Assembly (NCBI RefSeq): GCF_040834005.1
Contig: NZ_CP162129.1
Span: forward strand, 4,537,501-4,601,500
Reading direction: 5' to 3'
From: Paenibacillus sp. PL2-23
GTDB lineage: Bacteria; Bacillota; Bacilli; Paenibacillales; Paenibacillaceae
DNA length: 64,000 bases
How positions within the stretch are numbered: the stretch's first letter is position 1; every line of letters begins with the position of its first letter. Made by a program: the position numbers and the translations under genes. A model generated the notes under the pieces. It did no database searches, had not been told where the DNA came from, and worked only from the letters and a program-made list of their open reading frames with translations. Shown here in pieces: positions 69 through 17,825 of the stretch.

Positions 69-938
69 TTAGCCATTCACAACTTCTCCGCCGTTAATAT
101 GGAGCATCTGCCCCGTCATATAGCTGGAATCGTCGCACGCCAGATAGACATATGCCGCCGCCAGCTCATGCGGCTGTCCAGCGCGGCCCATCGGCGTGTC
201 GGAGCCGAAGGTCGACACCGACTCCGGATCGAACGACGCCGGGATAAGCGGTGTCCAGATCGGTCCTGGCGCTACGCCGTTCACACGAATGCCGTCAGCC
301 GCCAGATTGGTCGCTAGCGCGCGCGTGAACGACACGATTGCCCCTTTGGTGGAGGAGTAGTCGATCAGTGTTGGGTTGCCTCTATACGCCGTAATCGACG
401 CTGTATTAATAATGGAGCTGCCCTTCTTCAGATGAGGCATAGCGGCGATGGTGAGATAGAAGACGCCGAATACGTTCGTACGGAACGTCTGCTCCAGCTG
501 CTGCGGCGTGATGTCCTCCACCTTCTGCCGAACATGCTGCTCCGCCGCATTATTGACGACAATGTCGATACGCCCGAATTGCTCAATGGCGGCGCTGACT
601 ACCGCTTGGGCGAACGTATTCGTGCCGATATCTCCATTCATGAGGCTGCATTGGACGCCATACCTCTCGCAAGCCTCCTTCGTCTCCTTCGCATCGCTGT
701 GCTCGTCCTTGTACACGATGAGCAGAGACGCGCCCTCCTTCGCGTACGCCACAGCTACCGCGCGGCCGATACCGCTGTCGCCGCCGGTAATAATGGCCGT
801 CTTGCCGGCAAGCTTGCCGGCTGCTTTGTACTGCTCCGTCTCGAAGACGGGCAGCGGATTCATCTCCGATTCGATCCCGGGCTGCCTGCCCTGATTTTGC
901 GGCGGGAACACTTTTTGCTTCTGTTGTGTTGCAGACAT
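69..938 (-). CDS. SDR family oxidoreductase (general-stress type)
   Basis: Classical short-chain dehydrogenase/reductase of the long N-terminal-extension subgroup (YdaD/YhdF of Bacillus, YghA of E. coli); probably an NAD(P)H-dependent reductase of small carbonyls or alcohols in the cytosol. Visible motifs are the cofactor loop TGGDSGIGRA near residue 55, NNAA near 135, the catalytic Ser with YSSTKGA (Tyr-x3-Lys) near 195-200, and the PGPIWTPL segment. The ATG at 938 is preferred over the GTG at 950 because GAGGGAG lies 11 nt upstream of the ATG, while it abuts the GTG. The gene starts 21 bp after the speD stop codon and is probably cotranscribed with it. Family assignment is firm; the substrate is unknown. 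Confidence 0.9.
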   Translation of the reverse strand: MSATQQKQKVFPPQNQGRQPGIESEMNPLPVFETEQYKAAGKLAGKTAIITGGDSGIGRAVAVAYAKEGASLLIVYKDEHSDAKETKEACERYGVQCSLMNGDIGTNTFAQAVVSAAIEQFGRIDIVVNNAAEQHVRQKVEDITPQQLEQTFRTNVFGVFYLTIAAMPHLKKGSSIINTASITAYRGNPTLIDYSSTKGAIVSFTRALATNLAADGIRVNGVAPGPIWTPLIPASFDPESVSTFGSDTPMGRAGQPHELAAAYVYLACDDSSYMTGQMLHINGGEVVNG

Positions 939-959
939 AGAATCATCCACTCCCTCGTT

Positions 960-1760
960 CTACGTAATGTGATAAAAGATCTCGTCCATCTCCTGCTTCA
1001 GCCGGTTCGTGATCCTCCTCTGCTCCTCCACGCTCAGCGTATCCTTCGTATAGCCGAACAAATAATTGTTCAGATCGAATTGCTTCAGCCGGCACTTCGT
1101 ATGGAACAGATTCTCCTGATAGATGTTGACGTCAATCATGTCATACAGCTCAGCTTGCTCATCCGGTATGTAATTCTGGATGGAGTTGATCTCGTGGTCG
1201 ATAAACAACTTATACCCGTTAATGTCGCGCGTGAATCCTCTCACCTTGTAATCAATCATCATAATATCCGTATTAAACGAATGGATCAGATAATTGAGCG
1301 CCTTCAGCGGCGATATTTCACCGCAGGTTGAGACGTCAATATCAGCGCGGAACGTGCTGATTCCCTCGTCGGGATGATATTCCGGATAGGTGTGCACCGT
1401 AATATGGCTTTTGTCCAGCGCAAGAACCACATTGGCGGGCAGGGGACCCGGCGACTCCTCGAACGATTCCAGCGGCACCTCCACAACCGGCCCCTCGGAT
1501 ACAAGCAGCGTTACGCTGGCGCCTTGCGGCACGTAATCCTGCTTGGCAACATTCAGCACATGTGCGCCGATCATCTCCGATACTTGGTTCAGAATGGACG
1601 TCAGCCGATCAGAGTTGTACTGCTCGTCGATGTACGCGATGTACGCCTCCCGCTCCTCCTTCGTCTTCGTATAACAAATATCGTACATGTTGAAGCTGAG
1701 CGACTTGGTCAGGTTGTTGAATCCGTGCAGCTGAATGCGCTGCTCATGCGTAAGCTTCAC
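960..1760 (-). CDS. speD: S-adenosylmethionine decarboxylase proenzyme, E. coli type
   Basis: Makes decarboxylated SAM, the aminopropyl donor for spermidine-type polyamines. The protein is about 266 aa, like the 264-aa E. coli SpeD and unlike the short (about 125 aa) B. subtilis enzyme. The self-cleavage motif [12 protein letters not shown] is present; Ser118 (counting from the chosen start) should become the pyruvoyl group. Other family blocks are [36 protein letters not shown] and [13 protein letters not shown] at 1769 is possible, but AGGAG sits 8 nt before the in-frame GTG at 1760, and that start also matches the E. coli N-terminus better. No spermidine synthase gene lies nearby; a glutathionylspermidine-synthase-like ligase lies 3.6 kb away in the same neighbourhood. 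Confidence 0.95.
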
Positions 1761-1824
1761 ATTCCTCACTCCTTTTCCCTAGGTACTATTTCCTGTTACC
1801 CTTATCCTGATTCCGCCAAACGGG

Positions 1825-1857
1825 GAAAAAAATAAAGGAGCGCCCGGAAGCGCTCCT
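1825..1857 (-). terminator. Rho-independent terminator after the K+ channel gene
   Basis: On the minus strand a 7-bp stem (AGGAGCG/CGCTCCT) with an 8-nt loop is followed by TTTATTTTTTT. It lies just downstream of the channel gene and upstream of speD, so speD needs its own promoter in the roughly 60 bp that follow. Confidence 0.85.
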
Positions 1858-1911
1858 CTCGTCAAAATCATCTATATGATGGTGCTAGGCCGAATCGCTT
1901 GGTCCATGCGC

Positions 1912-2925
1912 TTAGCCCACAATTTTCCTGTATGTCTCCTCATCGCATATCATATACAGACGGGCGTTGCTCGGAATGTCTTCGCTCATCCTCCGATTGA
2001 TGCCCATGTCGCTCCGATCCGCCAACAGGGTCGCGCCCTGCTCCAGCAAGCCGAAGAAGGCGTCGCCGTACGTCCGCCAGCTCGGAGACACCGGAACCTC
2101 GTAAATATCATCGCCATGCTGCCTGCTGAGCAGCTGCCTGAACACATCTGGATTGCCCACTCCCAGCGCGGAACGAACAGCTAGCCGGGAGATAGCGTCA
2201 TGCGACAGTACAAATTCATTCACCTGCACGTGCCTGAAATTGCGAATATGCTTCTCCTGCATAATTTCGACCGTCGTATGTACGTTCGGCGCGATTCTCT
2301 CGATGCTGGAGACGATCAACAGGGATTTGCCGTCGACCAGGGAGGCTTCATCGATGCGCGAGTCCCCGAAGATAATCGCCGACTTTGCCCTGCTGATCAT
2401 CGCCTTTGCCAGCACCTCGTCCTCCGAGGGATCGCCACTGATGAAGTGCACCTGGTCCAGCTGCTCCAGCGGATGACGATCGGATTCATCAATAATGACG
2501 ATAGCCGTCTCGGGATGATGGGACAGGATTTCCTCGACGGCGGTTTGCGCTTTTTTGCCCCAATTTATAATGACAATATGATTCTCGCCCTGATAGTTCA
2601 ACTTCCCCTCTCCTCTCATGCGCTTAATGATGGCGAACGTGTCAATGATCCTGCCGATAACAAGGCTCAGCAGCCCGATGCCGAAGATGTACAGAAATAT
2701 CGTAAACACCTTGCCCGCGACCGTAACGGCATAATAATCGCCATACCCTACTGTCGCCATTGTTGTCAGCACCCAATACAGCGCGTTGAACCAGCTTCCG
2801 AACGTATCCGGCTCAAGCGCATACGCTACCGTGGCGCTGAAGAACACAAACACCACAATGCTAATGGCGATCGACCTTTTGCTAATATGGTACAGCTTCG
2901 CCGACAGCAGCCTTAGCAAATGCAT
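1912..2925 (-). CDS. yugO: Two-TM potassium channel with RCK (TrkA-N) domain, YugO-like
   Basis: Membrane K+ channel subunit of the MthK/YugO class. Residues 18-37 form TM1, a pore helix leads to the selectivity filter TVGYGD at 58-63, and TM2 spans about 68-90. The cytosolic part begins with a Rossmann-type RCK domain (NHIVIINWGKKAQ near residue 112), expected to gate the pore on ligand binding. The ATG at 2925 is chosen because GAGGGGGGAG lies 5 nt upstream; an upstream ATG at 2967 has no such site. The gene is transcribed divergently from pspA with about 130 bp between them, and faces the same envelope-stress gene set. The family is clear; the ligand and the link to the neighbours are inferred. 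Confidence 0.9.
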   Translation of the reverse strand: MHLLRLLSAKLYHISKRSIAISIVVFVFFSATVAYALEPDTFGSWFNALYWVLTTMATVGYGDYYAVTVAGKVFTIFLYIFGIGLLSLVIGRIIDTFAIIKRMRGEGKLNYQGENHIVIINWGKKAQTAVEEILSHHPETAIVIIDESDRHPLEQLDQVHFISGDPSEDEVLAKAMISRAKSAIIFGDSRIDEASLVDGKSLLIVSSIERIAPNVHTTVEIMQEKHIRNFRHVQVNEFVLSHDAISRLAVRSALGVGNPDVFRQLLSRQHGDDIYEVPVSPSWRTYGDAFFGLLEQGATLLADRSDMGINRRMSEDIPSNARLYMICDEETYRKIVG

Positions 2926-3054
2926 AGTGACTCCCCCCTCTATTTGAATACATGTATGATTTGGCATTTCGGATCATACTATCGTAGATTCGTGAAACCA
3001 TGTGCCGCCGTATGCGTATAAAATTTTATCTCAATGCCATTGGAGGGAATTACC

Positions 3055-3726
3055 GTGTCCTTGTTCAAAAGACTTCGCGATTTAACCCTGTCCAACGTTT
3101 ATTCCATGATCGAAAAAGCGGAAGATCCTATCAAGCTGACCGACCAGTATATCCGCGACATGACAGAGGATCTGCAGGACGCCGAGAAGGCCGTCGCTTC
3201 CCAGATCGCTCTGGAGAAAAAATTCAAGAAGCTGTACGAGGAGCAGGAGGCGCTTCTGCAGAAGCGGACCGAGCAATCCCACATCGCCGTTCAAGAGGGC
3301 AATCTGGAGCTCGCACGCCGCGTCATCGAAGACAAGCAAGCTGTTGAAACCAAAATGATCGAATACAAAGAGGCTTATGCCGAGAACCAGCTGCTGGCGA
3401 ACAATCTGCGCGCCAAGCTGGAGGAGATGCGCAAGCAGCTCACGGACATGAAGAACAAGCGCGACACTCTTGTCGCTCGTTATCAAGCCGCCAAGACGCA
3501 GACCGAAATCAACAAAGCCATGTCCAGCTTCGGCACAAGCTCCGCCTCGGCCGGCATGAAGCGTATGGAAGAGAAGATGCTGCAAGCCGAAGCGATGGCG
3601 GAAGCAAGCAACGATCTCGCCGCCTCCAAAGGCAAATCCATCGACGATGAATTCGCCAATCTGGGCAAGAACAGAGCCGTTGAAGACGAGCTCGCCGCCC
3701 TGATGAAGCAATACGAGAAGAAGTAG
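3055..3726 (+). CDS. PspA/IM30 (ESCRT-III-like) membrane-stress protein
   Basis: Peripheral membrane protein of the PspA/Vipp1/LiaH superfamily, which polymerises on damaged or fluidised membranes. Its 223 aa are almost wholly predicted helical coiled coil: N-terminal amphipathic segment SLFKRLRDLTLSNVYSMIEK, then EDPIKLTDQYIRDM and long charged heptads up to about residue 150. The C-terminal part is Ala/Glu-rich, DDEFANLGKNRAVEDELAAL. The GTG at 3055 is chosen because GGAGGG lies 8 nt upstream; the ATG at 3034 would overlap that site. It is followed after 6 bp by a DUF4178 gene, a pairing also seen in E. coli yjfJ/yjfK-type loci. Whether it is the cell's only PspA homologue cannot be judged here. 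Confidence 0.92.
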   Translation: MSLFKRLRDLTLSNVYSMIEKAEDPIKLTDQYIRDMTEDLQDAEKAVASQIALEKKFKKLYEEQEALLQKRTEQSHIAVQEGNLELARRVIEDKQAVETKMIEYKEAYAENQLLANNLRAKLEEMRKQLTDMKNKRDTLVARYQAAKTQTEINKAMSSFGTSSASAGMKRMEEKMLQAEAMAEASNDLAASKGKSIDDEFANLGKNRAVEDELAALMKQYEKK

Positions 3727-3732
3727 GCCGCT

Positions 3733-4254
3733 ATGGGACTGTTTGGCCGCATCCGCGGCATTCTGAAACGCCCCGAGCCGCCAATCGCGGAACGCAGCGT
3801 ATTCGAAGCCGGTCCCGGCGATGTGTGCGAGGTGTCGATGGTGACTTATCAGGTCACCGGACGCACCTCGAGCCAGCGCCGGAGAAACGCTCTGCTCACG
3901 CTGCAGGACGGCTCGGATTTTCGTTATCTGCTTGTCGAAGACCGTGAAGCCATCGCCTATTCGCTGTACAAATCCATCGACGGACGTCTGGACTCCTTCA
4001 CGGAAGTGCCGATGACGCTGGAGCTCGACGGACGTGTCTTCCATATGGAGGAGCAATACGTCGATTGGATTACCACCGTCGGCAAGACGCCGTTCCCGCG
4101 TCCCGGGGAGCTGTCCGTCTGGCAGTACCAATCCGATGACCGCAAGCTCATGCGCATCGAATGGCTGGACGGACGATTTATGCTCTACGAGGGCGAGGAT
4201 GTGCTGACCGCAGATGTCGAATTTCTATTCGGCGGCGGACGCACCGTACGCTAA
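3733..4254 (+). CDS. DUF4178 domain protein downstream of pspA
   Basis: A 173-aa soluble protein with the DUF4178-like pattern: an N-terminal GPGDVCEVSMVTYQVTGR strand region, a central EDREAIAYSLYKSIDG segment, and a C-terminal beta-rich part with MRIEWLDGRFMLYEGEDV. Such proteins are predicted to be small beta folds and recur next to PspA, DUF350 and polyamine-type genes; their biochemical role is not established. It starts 6 bp after the pspA stop, so the two form an operon closed by a strong terminator. I infer it partners PspA at the membrane; nothing in the sequence shows catalysis. Confidence 0.8.
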   Translation: MGLFGRIRGILKRPEPPIAERSVFEAGPGDVCEVSMVTYQVTGRTSSQRRRNALLTLQDGSDFRYLLVEDREAIAYSLYKSIDGRLDSFTEVPMTLELDGRVFHMEEQYVDWITTVGKTPFPRPGELSVWQYQSDDRKLMRIEWLDGRFMLYEGEDVLTADVEFLFGGGRTVR

Positions 4255-4258
4255 ACGC

Positions 4259-4311
4259 AAAGACTGTCTGGCCGGGAGCCTTGAGCATCCCGCCGGACAG
4301 TCTTTTTTTTT
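4259..4311 (+). terminator. Strong Rho-independent terminator
   Basis: AAAGACTGTC pairs with GACAGTCTTT, with a further GGCGGGA-type inner stem, followed by an uninterrupted run of T on the plus strand. It ends the pspA-DUF4178 operon. The convergent minus-strand gene ends 11 bp further on and may use the same hairpin in reverse with a shorter T run. Confidence 0.9.
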
Positions 4312-4321
4312 GCTGCCAATT

Positions 4322-4723
4322 CTATATGATCAGACTGCTGATGGCAAACGAAAAGCCGAGATACACCGAGAACAGCATGATGCCGACCGCAACATTGCCC
4401 TTCAGCAGCTGCTCCGATATTCTGAAGCTTGGCGTCATCAGCTCGAACAGCCAGTAGGCCGCGATCAGGCAGACATACCCAACCGCGAACCATAACATCA
4501 TGAACCAAATGTTCGTATTCGTATACGCGGCAACGCCCAGAATAAGCGCCGTCGAGATGAATTTGCCGCCAAGCGCAAGGCCAACGGCTACATTTCCCTT
4601 CTTCAGCTCCTCCACGTCCTTGAATGGCGTCATCAGGCTGAACACGAACATTCCCAGCAATTGAAGCACAATAATCACAAGAACGCTAACGACCAAATTC
4701 AAGACAATCGTCAATTCGCCCAC
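4322..4723 (-). CDS. DUF350 four-helix membrane protein
   Basis: Integral membrane protein of 133 aa with four predicted helices arranged as an internal duplication: FSLMTPFKDVEELKKGNVAVGLALG in the first half is echoed by FELMTPSFRISEQLLKGNVAVGIML in the second (each shown in part). This tandem LKKGN-VAVG signature marks DUF350 (E. coli YjfL). No enzymatic residues are known. The chosen GTG start overlaps the 3' end of the upstream lipoprotein gene by 13 bp, so translation is probably coupled; a TTG at 4714 is an alternative. It is the last gene of the minus-strand operon that includes the ATP-grasp ligase. Confidence 0.88.
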   Translation of the reverse strand: MGELTIVLNLVVSVLVIIVLQLLGMFVFSLMTPFKDVEELKKGNVAVGLALGGKFISTALILGVAAYTNTNIWFMMLWFAVGYVCLIAAYWLFELMTPSFRISEQLLKGNVAVGIMLFSVYLGFSFAISSLII

Positions 4724-5340
4724 CCCCGAAATTTCGAATATACGGAATCATAATCCGCAAAGTCATGTACCTCTTCCATTCGAATATTGACCGTTTGCTT
4801 CTCCGACATCGTGTTGTACATCGCTTCGTCAATCGGCTGCTTAATCCGATTGCCTGTTGGAAGCTCCACGATGGCGAAGTTGCGCGTTTCACCCTTAAAC
4901 TCAGTCTTATACACGCCAACAAGGTCAACCTCGGCTGTCAAATCCACCTTCAGCTTCTCCAGGTCCGCCTGCGCGTCCGACTCCTGCTTGAAGGTTTTCA
5001 GCGTCTGCCAAGCGGACAGCCGAACCTCATTGCGCTGATCGGCATGCGTGATCATCTCTGCATCCATGAATTGGAGAATGAACACCTTGTCGCCTGTCGC
5101 ATAATTGTTATCGTTCGGCATCAGCGTATTGTCTGGCAGGATGGTCATATCGCTGCCGATCAGATCGCCGACGGTACCATCGATCACCCGATAATCCCAA
5201 GGCACCCTGACAACGTCGGGATTTGAGCTCGTGCTGGTCTCGAATACGGATTGCGTGCCATTGGAGCAGGCTGCCAGCGCAAAGGCCAGAAGCAAGCCAA
5301 GGGCTAAGGTTAGATATATTTTTGGTAGACGTGCAAGCAT
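4711..5340 (-). CDS. Predicted lipoprotein of the PspA/DUF350 cluster (possibly DUF4247)
   Basis: 209-aa secreted lipoprotein: a hydrophobic signal segment at residues 8-24 ends in the lipobox LAAC (Cys25). The mature part has no membrane helix; it includes GDLIGSDMTILPDN and a C-terminal LPTGNRIKQPIDEAMYNT block. Lipoproteins of the DUF4247 group occupy this position in comparable clusters, but I assign that only tentatively. The start ATG directly follows the stop codon of the ATP-grasp gene (TAGATG), and its end overlaps the DUF350 gene, so all three are one transcript. It would sit on the outer face of the membrane. Confidence 0.82.
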   Translation of the reverse strand: MLARLPKIYLTLALGLLLAFALAACSNGTQSVFETSTSSNPDVVRVPWDYRVIDGTVGDLIGSDMTILPDNTLMPNDNNYATGDKVFILQFMDAEMITHADQRNEVRLSAWQTLKTFKQESDAQADLEKLKVDLTAEVDLVGVYKTEFKGETRNFAIVELPTGNRIKQPIDEAMYNTMSEKQTVNIRMEEVHDFADYDSVYSKFRGWAN

Positions 5341-6534
5341 CTATCTCACTCCTATCGCGATAAAATGGCTGGCGTTCCCCGTAATAGGCCCGCCTCCTCG
5401 GCCAAGCATGCCGCAAGGCTTTCCGTTAATAACGAACATGCCGGTCAGCAGATGGAGCTCGCCCTCCGACGTGCCGATTCGGGCAAGCTCCGCCCGCTTC
5501 TGGTACATGGTCGGGAACAAGGCGCTGGTGTCGAACCCTTCCCGGTCCTCCAGCTCCAGTCCACCAGCAGCGTCGAACAGGCGAACGGAGCCGCCTTCGC
5601 GCCCGAACATCGACTTGGACACGAAGCTGCCTTCGAATACCGCTTTGTTGTAGGCAGGCAGCATATATTGGCTGATGATCGCTCTTTCGCTTTCGTCGAA
5701 CAGCTGGCCCAGCTCATACAGACCCCATACAACAGCCAGCAAGCCCTTTGATTGAAGCAGGATGCTGTGCGGGCCGTTCCAGATGGCGAGCTCCCCTGTC
5801 TCGATGGAATAAGCAAGCGCATCCCCGCCTTCATCGACGGCCATCCACTCCTTCGGATAGAGCGCGAACATGCTCCGAATGGCGCGGCCTGTGCCATCCT
5901 TCAGCACGCCTTCATCCACATACAGCTCCAAGCAATCGACACAGCTGACGTCCAGGCCGCTGTGCTTGACCAGCGCCTCAATCGTGCCGGAATCCTCCAG
6001 ATGCTCGCCGTAGTCGACGCAGGCCGCCGTATCCGGCCGTTCCATCGCCCAAGCCTCCGCTATTCTCTCTCTCATTGCGAGATTAGGAGAGTCGAGACCA
6101 AGCTGGGCGCACATCCATGGCGTTGCGATTGAAGCCTCCACATAGCCCGTTGGCGTATCCGCGTTCAGCTCCAGCAGCTTAATCGCTCCTTCGTTGCTGA
6201 TAGCAAAATCGAAGCGGGCGTATCGGCTAATGAAGCCCTCCTCTGGCATTGGCAGCTCGTCAAGCATCGTCCAGAGCACCTCAGGAATGCCAATCAGTTC
6301 GTATAACGCATGATTGCCATGCACATACCGGGCTGCGCGGTCGAGTACCTTCCACAAGCCGGCAGACGCCTGCTCCAGCTCCTTATAGGTTTCGCTGCTC
6401 ATGGTCACGGCCTGATCGATCCAATACCGCTCATCCCCGATATCCGCCCAAGTAAAGCCTATGCCGGCGAGCTCAGCTACACGGCTTGCGCGGTCGGGAG
6501 ACGGCTCCGATATAACCTCGAATACGCCGCTCAT
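5341..6534 (-). CDS. Glutathionylspermidine-synthase-like ATP-grasp ligase (YjfC type)
   Basis: ATP-grasp amide ligase of the GSP_synth family, 397 aa, corresponding to the synthetase half only; the amidase domain of E. coli Gss is absent, as in E. coli YjfC and YgiC. Visible blocks are the early RYARFDFAIS, the metal/substrate motif LLELNADTPTG near residue 125, the nucleotide-binding lysine region SFVSKSMFGREGGSV near 305, and the C-terminal GMLGRGGGPITGNASHF. The family joins a carboxylate to an amine with ATP; the true substrate of the stand-alone members is unknown. The start overlaps the Ser-rich gene by 4 bp (ATGA). A speD gene nearby suggests a polyamine-like amine, which is inference. 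Confidence 0.92.
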   Translation of the reverse strand: MSGVFEVISEPSPDRASRVAELAGIGFTWADIGDERYWIDQAVTMSSETYKELEQASAGLWKVLDRAARYVHGNHALYELIGIPEVLWTMLDELPMPEEGFISRYARFDFAISNEGAIKLLELNADTPTGYVEASIATPWMCAQLGLDSPNLAMRERIAEAWAMERPDTAACVDYGEHLEDSGTIEALVKHSGLDVSCVDCLELYVDEGVLKDGTGRAIRSMFALYPKEWMAVDEGGDALAYSIETGELAIWNGPHSILLQSKGLLAVVWGLYELGQLFDESERAIISQYMLPAYNKAVFEGSFVSKSMFGREGGSVRLFDAAGGLELEDREGFDTSALFPTMYQKRAELARIGTSEGELHLLTGMFVINGKPCGMLGRGGGPITGNASHFIAIGVR

Positions 6535-7226
6535 CCGCCGAAACCGCTGCTACTCTTGCCGCTGGAGACACTGGAGCCGCTAGAGCTGCTAGAGCTGCTG
6601 GAGCTCTTCGAGCCGGAGCTGATGCTGCTTGAGGTGCCCCCTATGCCTCCAGGACTGGAGGAGGTGGAGCGCCGTGTCACCGAGCCAGTCGTCGTCGACG
6701 TCTTGGGTCTGACTGTGGAGCCGACGACAGATTTATTTTGAAACGTATCGCTTGTGTAGGAGGTTGGTCGATAAGGCGTAGACGACTTATAATAATAGGT
6801 TGGCCTCTTCTTATAATAGCTGGAGGACGAGTAGCTGGACCCCGAATTGAACAGCAAATGATAGAGCAGCAGATCATCCCAGCCGAAGCCGGTGCCGTAA
6901 TGATGAACGACGTTGGACCCGCCCCCGGCGCCCCCTTCCTCCGAGCCCTCGCCCTCCGGCTGGTCGGTGGGCAATGGCTGAAGCATGGGAAGATTCCAAT
7001 CGATATTAGGGTCAAAATAAGTCTTCACTTCATCCGATGACCAGGATACCAGCTTAGGCTCTTCCGCCGCAGCGCCTCCACTGTTGGCGGATACGCCTGT
7101 GCTAAGCACCGCGTTCGCCAGAAGCGCCACGCCCAGAGACGTGGACAGCACGCGAAGCGGCTTGCCGTCTGCGGTCAGCCAGCGAACTGGCTGCTCCTGT
7201 GTTTGTTGGTTATCGTCTTGCGTCAA
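6531..7226 (-). CDS. Ser-rich low-complexity envelope protein, YgiB/YjfM-like layout
   Basis: 231 aa. Residues 26-46 form one hydrophobic segment after a polar N-terminus. An acidic stretch near 95 follows (EGEGSEEGGAGGG), then a Tyr/Ser-rich part near 130-150 and a C-terminal tail of almost pure Ser, Gly and Thr ending in SSGFGG. The layout (basic N-terminus, membrane segment, Ser/Thr-rich end with terminal GG) resembles E. coli YgiB and YjfM, which also sit beside the ATP-grasp gene; sequence homology is not demonstrable by eye. TTG start at 7226: GAGGAG lies 8 nt upstream. The terminal Gly-Gly could in principle be the carboxylate used by the adjacent ligase; that is speculation. Confidence 0.75.
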   Translation of the reverse strand: MTQDDNQQTQEQPVRWLTADGKPLRVLSTSLGVALLANAVLSTGVSANSGGAAAEEPKLVSWSSDEVKTYFDPNIDWNLPMLQPLPTDQPEGEGSEEGGAGGGSNVVHHYGTGFGWDDLLLYHLLFNSGSSYSSSSYYKKRPTYYYKSSTPYRPTSYTSDTFQNKSVVGSTVRPKTSTTTGSVTRRSTSSSPGGIGGTSSSISSGSKSSSSSSSSSGSSVSSGKSSSGFGG

Positions 7227-7253
7227 GTTGCATTCTCCTCTCTGAAGCGTTGA

Positions 7254-7466
7254 TTAGCCCTGCATGGGAACAAGCAGCAGCTCAAGTCTTCCATGATCAA
7301 GGTTCAGACGGCCTTCCACCGTCTCATATTCTTTATTCCCCACTACGATATAATTGACGTGCTCCAGCGCGGCCACCATATTCATCGACCATTCGCGTTC
7401 CTCGATTTGATTCAATTCGCCGGTTGGGCTTTTCACCATCAGTACCACCTTCAAGCCTTGCTCCAT
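7254..7466 (-). CDS. Small conserved-looking protein heading the ATP-grasp operon
   Basis: 70-aa acidic soluble protein without a recognised domain: begins MEQGLKVVLMVKSP, contains NYIVVGNKEYETVEGRLNLD and ends LLLVPMQG. A clear ribosome site (GGGAGGAAGG) precedes the ATG. It is the first gene of the minus-strand operon and is followed after 27 bp by the Ser-rich gene. Function unknown; its position suggests a regulatory or scaffold role in the same system. Confidence 0.7.
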   Translation of the reverse strand: MEQGLKVVLMVKSPTGELNQIEEREWSMNMVAALEHVNYIVVGNKEYETVEGRLNLDHGRLELLLVPMQG

Positions 7467-7656
7467 GATGCTTCCTTCCTCCCTGCCAGTAGACTGCTGA
7501 ACACTTTTGATTATAACGTATTACGTCGCGAATGTGGCAGACGTTGCACATGAATGGGATTCATTGCTTTTTCCTTCCTCCGGATCAAGCGGTTCAACCC
7601 AGCCCTCTGGCGGTTATTGAGAGATAACGAAAGCCAACAAATCATGAGGTGAGCCT

Positions 7657-8769
7657 ATGTCCTATAAACAAAAAAGAGGTTTCAAGTGGCTGGTCGCAGC
7701 TATCCTCGTTCTGCTGCTGCTCTATTTGCTCCGGCTTAACGGGCAATTATTATGGCCTCTGTGGAAAGCGATAAGCGCCGTATTCGTTCCGCTTGCGCTG
7801 ACGGGCGTCTTCTATTACATGCTGCGTCCGCTCGTCGAAGCGCTTGTACGTCGAAGAACACCGCGCGGCTTCGCGGTGCTGCTAGTATTCTTATTCTCCG
7901 GCGGATTGCTGGCAGGTGTAATCCTTACAGCAGGACCGTTCATTCGCAATCAATTCACAGACTTTGCGGCTCAGGTGCCCGACATGATTAACTTCGCCGC
8001 GGAAACGCTTGAATCGCTGCGCGACGAGCATGAAGAGCTGTCCCCTCCTATCCAGGAGGCCATCCCTAACGTAAGCAATGAGCTGGCTTCGGAATGGAAT
8101 CGTTATGCTGGTTTGTTTGCGAACAGCCTCATCCGACTTATTGAGTGGATCAGCAGCGCGCTGCTCATCCTCAGTCTCATTCCGTTCATCCTCTACTATG
8201 CGCTGAAGGATGGAGAGCAGCTGACTCCGAGGCTGGTTCAACTGGCGCCGAAACGTTACCAGCACGGCATGCCCGCTATGCTGGAGGAGCTGGATGACTC
8301 GCTTGCCTCCTATATTCGGGGCAAGCTGATTGTCTCGCTGCTAGTCGGCATCATGCTGCTGGCCTGCTATCTGATCATCGGCCTCGATTACGCGCTGGTG
8401 CTGGCCTTCATCGGCATGTTCGCCAATATTATCCCTTTCTTCGGCCCCGTTATCGGCGCCGTCCCAGCCATGCTCGTCGCTCTGTTCCAGGATCCGGTCA
8501 AAGCGCTGTATATTCTGGCCATTACCGTTATCGTGCAGCAGATCGAAGGCAACTTCATCTCCCCGCAGGTCATGGGCCGCACGCTGGATATTCACCCTGT
8601 AACCGTAATCGTGCTCATCCTCGCGGCGGGAAGCGTCTCCGGCTTGCTCGGCATCCTGCTGGTCGTCCCGGCTTACGCGGCGGCGAAGGTGATTTACCGC
8701 CATGTGTCGGCGATGCGGGAGGAGGAGCAAGCCGGCACGAGAACGCATAGGGCAGAAGGGGAGTGTTAG
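7657..8769 (+). CDS. AI-2E family transporter (PerM/YdiK superfamily)
   Basis: Integral membrane protein of 370 aa with about eight helices: two at the N-terminus (residues 10-60), one near 75-95, a soluble segment at 100-150, then helices from 165 onward. The family signatures are YYALKDGEQL near 190, IRGKLIVSLLVGIM near 225, ANIIPFFGPVIGAVPA near 265 and EGNFISPQVMG near 300. Family members export small molecules such as AI-2 or act as ion antiporters; the substrate here cannot be told. GAGGTGAGCCT precedes the ATG. The stop codon runs into a perfect GC-rich hairpin. Confidence 0.9.
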   Translation: MSYKQKRGFKWLVAAILVLLLLYLLRLNGQLLWPLWKAISAVFVPLALTGVFYYMLRPLVEALVRRRTPRGFAVLLVFLFSGGLLAGVILTAGPFIRNQFTDFAAQVPDMINFAAETLESLRDEHEELSPPIQEAIPNVSNELASEWNRYAGLFANSLIRLIEWISSALLILSLIPFILYYALKDGEQLTPRLVQLAPKRYQHGMPAMLEELDDSLASYIRGKLIVSLLVGIMLLACYLIIGLDYALVLAFIGMFANIIPFFGPVIGAVPAMLVALFQDPVKALYILAITVIVQQIEGNFISPQVMGRTLDIHPVTVIVLILAAGSVSGLLGILLVVPAYAAAKVIYRHVSAMREEEQAGTRTHRAEGEC

Positions 8770-9333: not shown

Positions 9334-12300
9334 TTAGTCAATTAAGCCCGACTTCGTCAGCACGTTGCTCAGCAATTGAGCCGTCTCGGCGCGAGACACC
9401 GAGCGGTTCGGCTTCAGGCTGCCGTCTTGGTAGCCGGAAGCGATGCCTGCATGAAGCGCGGATGCGATGGCTTGCTCCGCCCAGACAGGGATCGCCGCGC
9501 GATCCGGTGCAGCCTGCAGCAGCGTTGCCGCTTCAGCCTCAGCTGCTTCCGGCATGCCTGCCAGCTTCCAGGCGCGTCCCAGGATGACCAGCGCTTCAGC
9601 GCGCGTAATCAAGCCCTGCGGACGGAAGGTTCCGTCCTGATAGCCTGTAATGAGGCCGTAGCGCGCGGCTGCGGATACAGCTGGCTCATACCAGGCGTCA
9701 ACGGACACATCCTTGAACGAAGCCGCTCCAGACAGGGATGGCAGTCCTAGCGCTCTTACAGCCATGGAAGCGAACTCCGCTCGCGTAATGCTGCCATTTG
9801 GATCAAAGCGCTGCTCGCTCTTGCCGTTAACGATCAGTCTGGATGCCATGCTCTCCACAACGCTCTTCGCCCAATGGCCATTCATATCGGAGAAGGAACG
9901 ATTATGATAGACGATCGTGTACAAGCTGTTTGTCAAGCTGTTCATGTTAGCCCAATAACTTCCGTTCCGTTCGTAGACGACAGTCGGCACATGCTGCATC
10001 GTGCCATCCGACTCGACACGAACGCCTGTCGTGATTTGGTTCGAACGCTCCTGGTCACCCACCAGGATGGATCGGCCAACGTATTCCATCAGGCGCTCCG
10101 GTTTGAAGGAACGGCCTTCATAGCTGTATTCGACCGTGAAGTCCACTGGATCCGCAAGCAGCGTCAGACCGTTCTGCTCTGCCTGAAGCTTCGCCTTGTC
10201 CGCCGCCTCTTGGGAAGCAGGCATCATCTCGATTACAACCTTAATGTCCTCCAGCTTGGCAGCTTCGCCGAATTGACGACGCACGCTTTCGATATCCATT
10301 ACAGCAGCGGATATCGTATACGCCGCACGATCCGTGCGAATGTCAAGCTTCAAGCGTTTGTTCTCCATCAGCTTGACCATGTCGCCCGTCAGCTCCTGCA
10401 CCTTCGCGTAGGACCCGTTAGGGACCGATACGGAGACGGTGTCTCCCTGTGACATGGTGCCGACCAAGCCAACCAGTTCGGTACGACGGAATGCCACATT
10501 AACATAATTTTGTCCGTTTGCCGATGCAAGCTTTCCATCCGCAATTCGGAAGTTGCCGTTCACATCCACATTCATCGTATCATTGAGCACAGGCGCAGCC
10601 CGCAAAATTTTCACCGCGTAATGGCGCGACTGCAGACGATCCTCGGATTCTACCTGAATATCGACATAATTGCTTCCATAGGACGGAAGAGTTACCTCGA
10701 AGCTGCCGCCGCCTTGCAGCGACTTGCCGTTGGCCGTGACGATCGCCGACTCATCCTCCGCATAAGCGGTAATCGTAACTTGGCTTCCCATGTAGCTCTT
10801 ATTCGTAATGGAATAGTTCAATCTCCACGGCGAGAAGGTAGTGGAGAGCTCCTGTCCCTTCACCTCAAGCTCGCTCAGGTTAGCCCCAAACTCAGGCTCT
10901 GACTGTCTAAGCACCCTGATGGCGTATGCCTTCGTATCGCCGTTCTCCGCAGTGACGGAGAGGCGAATTACATTAGTTCCCGCAGTGAGCGGAATGTTCA
11001 TGCTGCCAGTGAATGGCTGCCCTGCTACGCTAATGGCTGCAGCTGCATCCGCCGCATTAGCCAAGATCACAACAGATTGCACGCCAGCTGGAACAGCGGC
11101 CTCATAGTCCGTAATGCCGCTCTCGAACGCAGAGGTAAGCTCATAACCAGCAATGGCCAGATTGCTTAGATCGGCGTTGCTGCTTGGCTCACGCGTGATC
11201 GTCACGACGTAAGTGCGGTCTTTTTGCCCATTTGGCGAAGTCACCTTCACCTCTAAGGCGTTCTCACCCACAACAAGCGGAATCGATGCGGATGCGAGGC
11301 CGTTAGGCACCGCAGCACCATTAACCGTAATGGTCGAGGCGCTGGCGTAAGCCGTGGCTGTAACCGTCGTGTATGCCGTTTCATTCGGAACAGTCAGCTC
11401 GTATGCCGTACGAAGCACATCAAAGCTCATATTCAGCTCGCCTGCATCGACGGACAGTCCATTCAACGCCGCAATGTCTGCAACATTTCTTGTTACTTGA
11501 ATGGTATACGTCTTAAGGCTGTTGTCAGCGGCGCGGACCTGCACGCTTACGCTTGCGCCGTTCTGACCGATCTCAACGGCTCCAGAGCTGTTCTCATCCA
11601 CAGCCATGCCATTGACCGTAACAGTCGAGCCTAGTCCAGCGGCGACAGCCCATACTTGAACATGGCTGGTAGCGGGATCAAGCAGCAACGAATATTGTGT
11701 TGTCTGAGGGTCGAAGGCTGGCGTCAGCTCACCCATATCAAAAGCCAGAGCCGACAGATCGGCAGCTTGCTCGATACCGGACGGTGGCGCTCCCGCATCC
11801 TTCAGCAGGTCCAGCTTGTAAGTTGTTTCATTGCCCACCTCATCCGCTGCCGTCATGACAACAGGCAGCAGGCCGTCAGCTGCAGCAATCGGCAGGTAGG
11901 CGCGGAACTCGCCCCGCTCATCCACCGGAATGAGCATACCGTTCGCCATCAGCTTAACGCCTGGCTCCGCGGCGCCGCTGAACACCACACGTTCCCCGCC
12001 GACCACCTGTCCGCTGACAGGCTGCTCGACATACAAGTGAGGTGCCGTACGATCCACGAACAGCTTGTGGAAATGCGAATAACGATCGCCGTCCTCAGTG
12101 ACGGTCTCAATCAGAATTTCATAATCGCGTTCAGTCAGTCCCTCCAGCGAGAACGATGCGTCTGCGTCAACATCCGCGGTTTCAGTCCCATAAGACTGCC
12201 CGTTAACGAACAGCTCAGCCGAGATCGCCTGATCCGTCGAAACTCGCAGCGTCAGATCGGCTGCCGATGTCACCGTTAGAGGAAGCTGCTCGTCCGAGCC

Positions 12301-15300
12301 TGCTTCCGCATAATATGGCGTATACAGCTTATCGGATTTGGCGACATTGCCTGTATCCACCGTAACGGATACATCAGCAGGATTCGGCTCAGGAATAAAT
12401 ATCTCCACTACATCGGAAAGTCCGCTGTATGCCGCTCCCCCATCATGCTCTCGAATGGCCATAACTGCCAGTCGATAGGTCTCGCCCGCTTCCAGTGCGA
12501 AAGTGGCTTCCTGCTGATCGCCATTCAATGGCTCTATGTCGAATGCCGATCCGCTGTATAGCGGATTGTCCGCTTCATCGACCATCAGCACTCGGTAGTA
12601 AGTGACCTGCTCGGCGTTCTCATCTGTGAATTGGATGCGCGCCTCGCTGTTGCCGACTGCGACTGCCGTTAAATCCTGAACGGTTGGCAGCACCTCACTC
12701 GCCTCAACAGCTATCGGGGTGTCCGACAGACGGTACATCGGACCAAACGATTCGCTGTCTGCCAGCAGGACGAGCCAGTATTGTCCCGGCATATAACCAT
12801 CCGGCAGCGTAATCTCGCCAATGCCGCTCGGTGGAAGCTGCTGGGCGACAATCTCACCCACACGCTCCTCCTCATTCGGTACGATCATCACGCTGACGTT
12901 CGTATCCGCCTTCGGATTCTCAACCTTCCACGTCAGCTTGTACGTGTTCATCTCTTCTGTCGCTTGCGCAGTAAAGCCCGTTATTGCCGGCGCAAGCGGA
13001 GCCTTGTACAGGTCCAGCGTGTACCAGCCGGCCGACTTGACTGTCCATAAGCCAATCGTATCAATATCTACCGCCACGTACAGCATCTGATCCTCTTCAT
13101 TCCAGATCGCGTTGCGGTTCGCTGCTTCCTCAGACGCCACAATGGGGTACGCCACTCCATTCGGACGCTCGATAGACGTCCCTTCCATAGGACCAGAGAT
13201 GGCGAATACATAACGTTCCTTTTCTTCCATGCTGAGGGTGATGACTCGTTCCTCGGAGGCATACACATCGCCCAAATCCTCCGCGCCGCCGTTCACAACA
13301 TAGCCGTTAACGACGGGATAATGATTCGACTTCACCATCCACCAGCCATATTGGTCAACATCGATCAGGATCATCATGCTCTGTCGAGCTTCGTTGTAGT
13401 CGGCATTCCAGCCCGGCAGCTCCGAATTCGTCTGCAGCTCGTACAGCGTGCCATCTGGCCGGTACAGCTGAACATCCTCAGCCGTATGCTCGATTTCCAG
13501 CAAGGCTTGACCATTAAAGCTTCTATCCAGCTCGAACAGCGCTTCATGCTCCTCCGAGAGCACCCATGCCAGCGCCTCTTCCATCGTCTTGCCTGGTCTA
13601 ATCTGGTATGCGCCTGCTGTCACATCCTCACCGGCCGCTGCCAGCCACATGCCCGCCAGAGCGGCGTCTGCCAGCACGTACAACGTTCCCGTTGACTCAT
13701 CGCGGTAAGCATTCCAGCCTGGGTGTCCGTTGTCCAGCTGCAGCGTATACGGTCTGCCATCCGGCTGATAGAGAGTGGTATCCACGCCAGCGCCTTGGAG
13801 CTCCAGCATAACGAGGCTCGGTTCAGCCAGCTGAATGCCCGTGAAGCTCGTTTCCTCCGCCTGGGTCATTCCGTTCACCAGCTGCGTGAACGACAGCTCC
13901 GAATCGCGGTACAGCAAGTGCTGCTCACCGATTGCGACAGCTTCACTCGCTGTTACATGCCAAGCTCCAATCTGGTCAAACTCGACCTCCACCAACACGG
14001 TATTCTCGCTGTCAAGGTACACAGCATTGGCTTCCTTGCCATTGACGTCTGTGAAACGCACATCGTACGGAGTTCCGTCCGGCTTCCGCAGCGCAAGAGA
14101 CGTATCCGCCCCAGTGCCTGTCAATACGAGCACTGAACGACGCTTCTCGTCGATCGGGAACGTATGCAGCACGTTTTGGCCATCGCTTGTCGCAGCAACC
14201 TGAGGAAGAACGCTTCGCGACCAGCTAACCGCCTCTTCCGCCAGCACATACCCGCGCTCCGATGCTTGCAGACCCGTCAGGTCAACTAAGCGGATGCCTG
14301 TCAGATGCTCCAGATTGCCTTCTTCGCTGCTTAGCAGCGTTGTTTGCACGGCGCCCAGCGCAGCCGCCGAGCTGGTTGAGCCCAGTAAAGCTGAAGGCTC
14401 ATTGCCAAGCAGACGTTCTATCATTTCAGTCCCAATTCCGCTTGGGGCTAGAGCAAACCCGAACCATTTGCCAATTTTCTTGATTCCGCTGCTGACAGCC
14501 TTAACTGCTGTGCTGCCAACATTTTTCACCAGGTTAACTGCACCATTCACTACATTTTTCAGTGTTGCGGACAGATCCACCTTGAAATCTACATCGTTAT
14601 TACTGAATTTATAGGTCGTAGTGAAGCCTACGCCGATAACCGACAAGCCGCCCTTGGCTATGTCCTTATTAACTCCCAGCTCTGCGGAAGACAGCTTCTG
14701 TCCGCCAACAACCGGAATGCTCTTCGGAATTTGTAATCTGCCCTTGGCATGGCCCGCCAGGTCTGAAGGGTGGAAATATTTGCCCATGACCTCGCCAACC
14801 AGAATATCCAGCAGGTTCACATTAGCCGTCACCTGGAAGCCAGGCTTCGTGTAGCCCTTGATTCCCGTTGGATTCACAACAACAAACAAATCCAGATCCG
14901 AGACATTAACCGTGTAGATCGCAAGCTTCCCGCTGGCGCCAAAATGATTAGCCGAAACCTCCGCATCCAGCGGATTTACGTTCACCATATTGTTGCCATT
15001 GAAGATTGGCGTCACCATATCGGACAAGCCGCCCAGCAGACGGAAGGTCAATGGCCCCGTCGTTTGATCCGCAAGATTGGCGATGCCTCCGCCCAATCTC
15101 GTAAATTGAGCGCCTGTGCTCGCAATTGGGATTTTGGTATGGACAGCGAACGAAATGGCATCCAGCTTGGACTTCTTAATGGCCAAGTCCATCTCGAAGC
15201 CGACCTTATACTTCCGAAGACCAGCCGTGGCGCCGAAGCTGTAGCGCGGCAGGCTCGTGTTAATGCCTACCCGCAACTCCGAGCTGTCGATCGGTCCCGT

Positions 15301-17664: not shown

Positions 17665-17825
17665 GTCGTTAGTCCTCCCTATTTGCCGATGAAGCATGGG
17701 CATTTTCTCCTAATCGACATCATATGACAAGGACATTAGCAAAACCTGAACAAGACTAAGCTCCCCTGCTGCCTCGGGTAAACGATCTGTCGATTCCCTA
17801 GCTCCCGCTGCAAGGCAGAAGCAGA

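Follow-up and report, generated by a model that had tools for sequence, protein, structure and literature searches.

The question raised by this locus is what the ATP-grasp ligase encoded near one end of the window (a stretch of 64 000 nucleotides of Paenibacillus sp. PL2-23 DNA, from a genome of 5.48 Mb on a single contig) acts on, and which of the surrounding genes act with it. A prediction made from the letters of the window (the original prediction) had joined a ligase of the glutathionylspermidine synthetase type with genes for PspA, a YugO-like K+ channel, SpeD, DUF4178 and DUF350 proteins, a lipoprotein, a Ser-rich envelope protein and a 70-aa protein, and had proposed that an amine derived from decarboxylated S-adenosylmethionine (dcSAM) is ligated to a peptide carboxylate such as the end of the Ser-rich protein in response to membrane stress. 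All of these genes were found when open reading frames (ORFs) and family profiles were checked, but comparison shows the set as first drawn to be a local gathering of genes about a smaller core, centred on a pair: the cytosolic ligase and a Gly/Ser-tailed exported protein. This pairing, the acid-free tail with its usual Gly end, the conserved active-site residues of the ligase and a promoter of envelope-stress type, all read from sequence, incline us somewhat beyond an even chance to the view that the ligase amidates the C-terminal carboxylate of the tail with spermidine, inside an envelope-stress operon. Five genes and a putative promoter on the minus strand make up the core; they are close-packed and operon-like, the 4-bp overlap of the Ser-rich and ligase genes and the 13-bp overlap of the DUF350 and lipoprotein genes that had been claimed are both real, and the ligase and lipoprotein genes abut at 5340/5341.

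7522–7548, minus strand: putative sigma-W/extracytoplasmic function (ECF)-like promoter of the five-gene operon, TGCAAC-N17-CGTA
7254–7466, minus strand: p70, a 70-aa protein that opens the operon; no family match in Pfam or NCBIfam
6531–7226, minus strand: Ser-rich exported protein, predicted substrate of the ligase; TTG start
5341–6534, minus strand: ATP-grasp ligase of the GSP_synth family (Pfam GSP_synth, E 9.9e-52)
4711–5340, minus strand: lipoprotein with an LAAC lipobox (by eye); without a Pfam family
4322–4723, minus strand: DUF350 membrane protein, YjfL-like (Pfam)

The ligase (397 aa) matches PF03738 with 176.8 bits over residues 21–393. GSP_synth was its sole Pfam match and no amidase domain was found in that scan, which bears out the earlier description of a ligase lacking one. 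Its best matches in the PDB were E. coli YjfC (E 2.1e-20, full-length) and YgiC (E 6.5e-11), and it scored 33.7 bits with NCBIfam PRK10507 against an equivalog cut-off of 882 bits. All 23 residues that are invariant in an alignment of eight sequences (A1) are present in it, including R101, D103, E116, N118, K265, K302 and R307 (YjfC numbering), residues that we take to have catalytic roles. Ligases of the GSP_synth fold use ATP to activate a carboxylate, which is then passed to an amine; Gss uses the Gly carboxylate of glutathione, joining it to spermidine. E. coli YgiC and YjfC are reportedly peptide–spermidine ligases, and a RefSeq record gives both that name.

The gene directly before the ligase encodes a protein with a signal-peptide-like N-terminus (by eye), a GFGWDDLLLYH block and a Gly/Ser tail that contains GGIGG, ends in GFGG and has no acidic residue among its last 25. 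With its terminal Gly and no second carboxylate close by, such a tail would be a natural analogue of the glutathione Gly used by Gss. The same arrangement recurs in E. coli, where an RGG(F/Y)G motif is followed by the ending TGTSSRSMGG in YgiB and SARGHWGG in YjfM. We looked at the best 80 of at least 591 confirmed proteobacterial loci. In 78 of them the ORF directly upstream of the ligase has G-F/Y-G within its last 60 residues, an acid-free last 15 and a G/S/A end; GFG is present in 77 of these 80 upstream ORFs, exact RGGFG in 68 and a GG end in 71. The other two loci (L146 and L184) have a PspA-like ORF directly upstream of the ligase and the tail protein elsewhere in the locus. Among 621 other ORFs of the proteobacterial loci the motif occurs in nine and a GG end in three, and the two together occur in only two, which are the tail proteins of L146 and L184.

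In the order Paenibacillales, 61 loci were compared (60 stretches of 12–14 kb chosen for genus coverage, plus the window), which fall into two types, A (39 loci, including the window) and B (22 loci). Type-A tails end in FGG (25), SGS (7), SGG (3), FGS (1) or FSS (1), two being disrupted, and type-B tails end in GG (10), SS (8), SG (3) or GS (1), one of the type-B picks being the wrong ORF; a GG end was seen in 0/650 other ORFs of these loci. Asp and Glu are absent from the last 15 residues of 135/135 tails, compared with 151/650 other ORFs, where the tail set omits L146, L184 and L182 (proteobacterial), L047 and L081 (disrupted, type A) and L059 (wrong ORF, type B). When the tails were removed and the bodies clustered (L146, L184 and L059 omitted), the tails proved to sit on eight body clusters that BLAST did not join. 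The (S/T)RGGFG motif is repeated in tails of gamma- and alphaproteobacteria and of one actinobacterium. In L047 and L081 the Ser-rich reading frame departs from the Gly/Ser tail before its end; L047 also has its lipoprotein gene broken into two ORFs.

Plasmids provided a further sample, in which ten of 40 listed matches (from 110 records) were picked for phylum spread before their neighbours were seen; the hosts were Rossellomorea, Brevibacillus, Virgibacillus, Lactococcus, Leptolyngbya, Trichormus, Pseudarthrobacter, Rhizobium, Loktanella and Rhodobacter. In all ten, which come from four phyla, an exported-looking Gly/Ser-tail protein adjoins the ligase (eight upstream, two downstream). The tail ends in GG in five, in other Gly/Ser combinations in the rest, and its last 15 residues are acid-free in nine. 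It should be noted that the Rhizobium tail resembles those of L190 and L193 among the 80 proteobacterial loci, so that the plasmid cases are not all independent. On the Lactococcus plasmid a 71-aa lipoprotein gene lies directly before the ligase gene, and DUF350 was not among the annotations of that stretch. A Bacillota-wide sample gave a match in 23 of 199 genomes, representing 22 distinct genes in L094–L116; a tail ORF lay within 1.5 kb of seven of the ten clear matches (E <1e-20).

The conserved unit around this pair was defined from the 61 loci of the order, in which GSP_synth is present in 172/198 genomes. In type A the genes run p70, Ser-rich protein, ligase, lipoprotein, DUF350, an order kept in 39/39 loci, with the lipoprotein adjoining the ligase in every one. 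Type B consists of a short lipoprotein, the ligase and DUF350, preceded by a protein of about 160 aa that a motif search found in 15 loci. DUF350 is downstream of the ligase in 61/61. The remaining genes of the window locus are optional members or neighbours and are as follows.

3733–4254, plus strand: DUF4178 protein (Pfam), optional member
3055–3726, plus strand: PspA family protein, optional member; likely GTG start at 3055
2993–3018, plus strand: putative sigma-W/ECF-like promoter of pspA, TGAAAC-N16-CGTA
1912–2967, minus strand: YugO-like K+ channel with an RCK/TrkA-N domain, optional member
1834–1859, minus strand: terminator-like hairpin separating speD from the channel gene
960–1769, minus strand: SpeD, class 1a S-adenosylmethionine decarboxylase (TIGR03331, E 9.4e-136), neighbour

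The PspA and DUF4178 genes are transcribed oppositely to the operon (about 3055 to 4254), with the channel gene head-to-head with that for PspA, whose start is most likely the GTG at 3055 behind GGAGGG rather than the ATG at 3034. Across the 61 loci the channel is found in 16, DUF4178 in ten, PspA in two and SpeD in one. Near the ligase in the 80 proteobacterial loci, DUF350 is found in 30, the channel in 17, PspA in 15 and SpeD in none. The conserved co-occurrence in relatives that had been anticipated is thus real for the ligase, Ser-rich protein, lipoprotein, DUF350 and p70 but does not extend to SpeD, and as PspA is in the cluster in only two of the 61, ‘PspA/SpeD neighbourhood’ is the wrong name for the conserved unit. 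Two ligase clusters, one of type B and one of type A (L032 and L033), coexist in genome G191, as YgiBC and YjfMC do in E. coli.

What might control the unit was suggested by the region before p70. The element TGAAAC-N15..17-CGT, the consensus of which we take to be that of B. subtilis sigma-W, is present in exact form within 200 bases upstream of p70 in 29 of the 39 type-A loci (0.13% in shuffles), and in 27 of these 29 it lies at −60 to −95. Before the other genes the exact element is rare or absent (Ser-rich protein 0/39, ligase 0/61, lipoprotein 0/40, DUF350 2/61). Five more type-A loci, including the window, have it with one mismatch (4% in shuffles), and in another five no such element was found within 200 bases even with one mismatch allowed; extending the search to 300 bases added L077 and L078, with 2/649 background ORFs matching. 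The exact element also precedes both of the PspA genes (in the window and in L051). Since a related promoter pattern occurs twice in the whole window, where chance alone would give 2.76 matches, the case for the pspA promoter comes from position and recurrence, not from the number of matches. A sigma-W promoter before the type-B operons was considered and rejected, as the 22 loci yielded a single stray match, far upstream. The sigma-W-like operon promoter, exact in 29/39, is new support for a role in envelope stress, a part of the original prediction that it strengthens.

From these features we infer the substrate, the use of spermidine here, the timing and the effect on the envelope. Stress would induce the five-gene operon. 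While the C-terminus of the Ser-rich protein is still in the cytosol, the ligase would activate its terminal Gly carboxylate with ATP and join it to an amine of spermidine; because the partner bears a signal sequence or lipobox, ligation would have to come before export ends. The capped protein would then be exported with a polycationic tail, which could bind anionic polymers or lipids of the envelope (teichoic acids or phospholipid head groups are candidate partners) and so steady the membrane, while p70, DUF350 and the lipoprotein may serve to keep the tail partner at the membrane. We keep as a prediction the original idea that an amine is attached to the C-terminus of the Ser-rich protein, which is backed by the tail pattern and by the nearest solved enzymes being YjfC and YgiC. 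A wider version, which we put forward tentatively and at a little under an even chance, is that C-terminal polyaminylation is widespread in bacteria (Pseudomonadota, Bacillota, Cyanobacteriota and Actinomycetota), with a ligase of the YgiC/YjfC kind reading the G-aromatic/I-G motif and the Gly-Gly or Gly/Ser end of an exported partner and adding a spermidine cap before export, the minimal system being two genes and the Paenibacillales version an envelope-stress operon. On this pattern every such ligase would have a candidate substrate encoded next to it, in E. coli YgiB for YgiC and YjfM for YjfC. If this is correct, exported bacterial proteins receive polyamine tags at their C-terminus, as SUMO does in eukaryotes, and the recurrent association of polyamine-type ligases with PspA and envelope stress, so far unexplained, would have a reason.

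Several observations weigh against this. The ligase is cytosolic and its partner exported, so that modification is confined to the time before export, and the operon promoter of the window has one mismatch to TGAAAC and is weak taken alone. Tails end in Ser in 9/37 intact type-A and 9/21 type-B cases, and the Lactococcus tail has two acidic residues in its last 15. Ser/Gly-rich tails are of low complexity, tend to be acid-free in any case and could be wall-binding spacers. One body cluster holds 73 of 78 proteobacterial tail proteins, in a sample limited to the 80 best loci, and the type-B and proteobacterial bodies, which share a lipobox region (hhalign probability 80), may be remote relatives; in addition, the type-B tail ORF was chosen for having the highest Gly and Ser content of those nearby, a choice biased towards the pattern. 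Finally, a tail ORF is missing from the 1.5 kb around three of the ten clear Bacillota matches (L099, L101 and L115) and around all 12 weak ones (L103–L114). A tail as a feature of every GSP_synth protein is ruled out by these partnerless members. E. coli gss, our single control, the enzyme of which uses free glutathione, has yghU and pitB as neighbours and no tail protein, which counts in favour of the tail as substrate. Together the Bacillota sample and the gss control indicate that the pairing is a feature of YgiC/YjfC-like, type-A and type-B ligases and not of the family at large. Within the weak group, the genes of L109–L113 (GSP_synth E 6.8e-8 to 3.3e-5) each adjoin another ORF, of 437–447 aa, and no tail ORF was found next to them; they are perhaps a different ligase family. 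In another Bacillota lineage, L116 (genome G325, 810–3768) encodes an 880-aa protein with two GSP_synth matches after an ORF with the tail-like ending KSGGYGAIRGGSAIS.

The evidence on tails also bears on what else the ligase might do. The tail could be a structural Gly/Ser tail for wall binding or assembly, with the ligase acting on another protein and the linkage being regulatory; the long Ser-rich low-complexity stretches of type A and the minority of Ser ends fit this, but (S/T)RGGFG tails recur in gamma- and alphaproteobacteria and one actinobacterium, and other candidate targets such as p70 and PspA are absent from most loci, so that we regard it as unlikely, though the most serious of the alternatives. 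Distinctly unlikely, in our view, is that the ligase makes a free peptide–polyamine conjugate (glutathionylspermidine or an analogue with another thiol) which the Ser-rich neighbour binds or senses. Homology to glutathionylspermidine synthetase, the distant GSP_synth proteins without a tail neighbour and the reported activity of YgiC and YjfC on peptides with spermidine would all suit such an enzyme. It would, however, leave the steady pairing with a tail unexplained, down to the two-gene case of the Lactococcus plasmid; Gss of E. coli, the substrate of which is free glutathione, is encoded without a tail neighbour, and one paper states YgiC to be without Gss activity. Links of the graspetide kind, between Ser/Thr hydroxyls or Lys of the tail and acidic side chains, come to mind as ATP-grasp enzymes beside Ser-rich peptides are generally known to make them, but the last 15 residues of the 135 tails offer no acidic side chain and we consider this chemistry highly improbable.

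The remaining alternative concerns the amine, which might be dcSAM itself, supplied by the adjacent SpeD. SpeD does adjoin the cluster in the window genome, where it is of class 1a (TIGR03331, 451.2 bits against a cut-off of 255.8), and an AdoMet decarboxylase is noted in related operons by Ravi et al. 2024 (PMC11237479), who cite Li et al. 2019 for such links. Against this, the linkage is that of one locus in 61 in the order and none in 80 in the proteobacteria, and the hairpin that precedes speD, an 11-pair stem followed by a T run, has the longest stem among 11 terminator-like sites (mean 5.9 in shuffles). Class 1a SpeD is present in 49 of 78 genomes of the family including that of the window, the other 48 copies being 77–86% identical, and it lies apart from the ligase where the places were compared (for example G191, G111, G127 and G171); the window genome also has a class 1b SpeD and SpeE elsewhere. 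AdoMet_dc was matched in 166/198 genomes of the order, leaving 32 without a match (20 listed by name, the other 12 inferred from absence among the AdoMet_dc matches), and 31 of the 32 keep the ligase, the exception being G113. We first suspected that these 32 were without spermidine, which was rejected as all of them (six plus 26/26) carry the carboxy(nor)spermidine decarboxylase NspC, the match in G162 (78% complete) being partial and under the cut-off. Conversely, seven NspC-less genomes of genus g2 have SpeD, and the two enzymes are complementary across the order (G010, G026, G087, G005, G039 and others), a clean swap of spermidine routes. Retention of the ligase in SpeD-less genomes means that dcSAM is not a general substrate, a role for it that we think hardly credible, and SpeD was rejected as a member of the system on linkage, on the hairpin and on its absence from whole genomes; on both counts the original prediction did not hold. 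As spermidine can be reached by either route it fits as the amine, although it is near-universal and the fit is one of consistency and not proof. On present sequence evidence spermidine is the likeliest amine for the ligase.

Some of the proteins of the locus gave little to searches. The predicted model of p70 has five strands and one helix, its best fold matches (HisI, MrfA and glutamine synthetase, Z ≤7.1) lay in the uninformative range, and comparison with the C-terminal half of the ~160-aa type-B upstream protein gave an hhalign probability of 14.6. For the lipoprotein no fold match was found at E up to 0.001, and its assignment to DUF4247 was discarded since Pfam supported it in 0/30 members. 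The cluster is flanked by a short-chain dehydrogenase/reductase-type (SDR) oxidoreductase at 69–950 (minus strand), relatives of which are present in 6/61 loci of the order, and by a transporter-like ORF at 7657–8769 (plus strand; AI-2E-family-like by eye), with relatives in the window only among the 61. Beyond these, at 9334–17703 (minus strand), lies the gene for a 2789-aa surface-type protein, the C-terminal part of which resembles S-layer homology repeats by eye.

Compared with known systems, the enzyme family and its phage shock protein (PSP) neighbourhood are already known. Ravi et al. 2024 (PMC11237479) describe PSP operons with an ATP-grasp protein, a K+ channel, YjfL/DUF350 and DUF1190, which they call a metal-chelating lipoprotein, and place DUF4178 in a sister group. 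The window shares the channel, PspA and DUF350 with those operons and has all four of the set formed by these and an ATP-grasp ligase, so that the gene association of the original prediction is real but not new; a tail substrate, the five-gene Paenibacillales unit and a sigma-W promoter are not named in the passages of the paper that were consulted. In the literature searched, outside which the key enzyme papers lie, neither a natural substrate of YgiC/YjfC nor a tail as substrate of the ligase was found, and earlier mention of the latter is possible. The bifunctional Gss of E. coli belongs to the same ligase family and differs from the window ligase, in which no amidase domain was found, and in having no tail-protein neighbour. 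Joining of the C-terminal Gly-Gly of eukaryotic SUMO to spermidine is described in PMC12270671, which indicates that such a product is possible on proteins; it uses E1/E2 enzymes of the ubiquitin system and no ATP-grasp ligase, and is an analogy, not a case of membership. In E. coli tolC-ygiB-ygiC the gene for the tail protein YgiB (RGGFG...SMGG) immediately precedes that for the ligase YgiC, and DUF350, PspA and a channel are not annotated beside them. E. coli yjfIJKLMC (YjfC, PDB 7uk6/7uk7) has in common with the window PspA, DUF350 and YjfM, an exported tail protein that ends in HWGG and is encoded directly upstream of YjfC, just as the tail gene precedes the ligase in the window. The ten window proteins scanned (69–7466) differ in giving no match to DUF2170, DUF2491 or DUF1190, families that mark the E. 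coli type of yjf operon with its CesT/Tir-like YjfI. Nor is the Ser-rich protein a detectable homologue of the DUF1190 set: alignment to the proteobacterial tail proteins gave an hhalign probability of 2.0, despite a resemblance by eye in the order PK...TTT..TR..GG. The window in turn adds p70, a new lipoprotein family and the sigma-W-like promoter. The locus is thus probably best regarded as a variant of the YgiC/YjfC kind, to which the putative link to a tail substrate and the sigma-W-like promoter would be the new elements.

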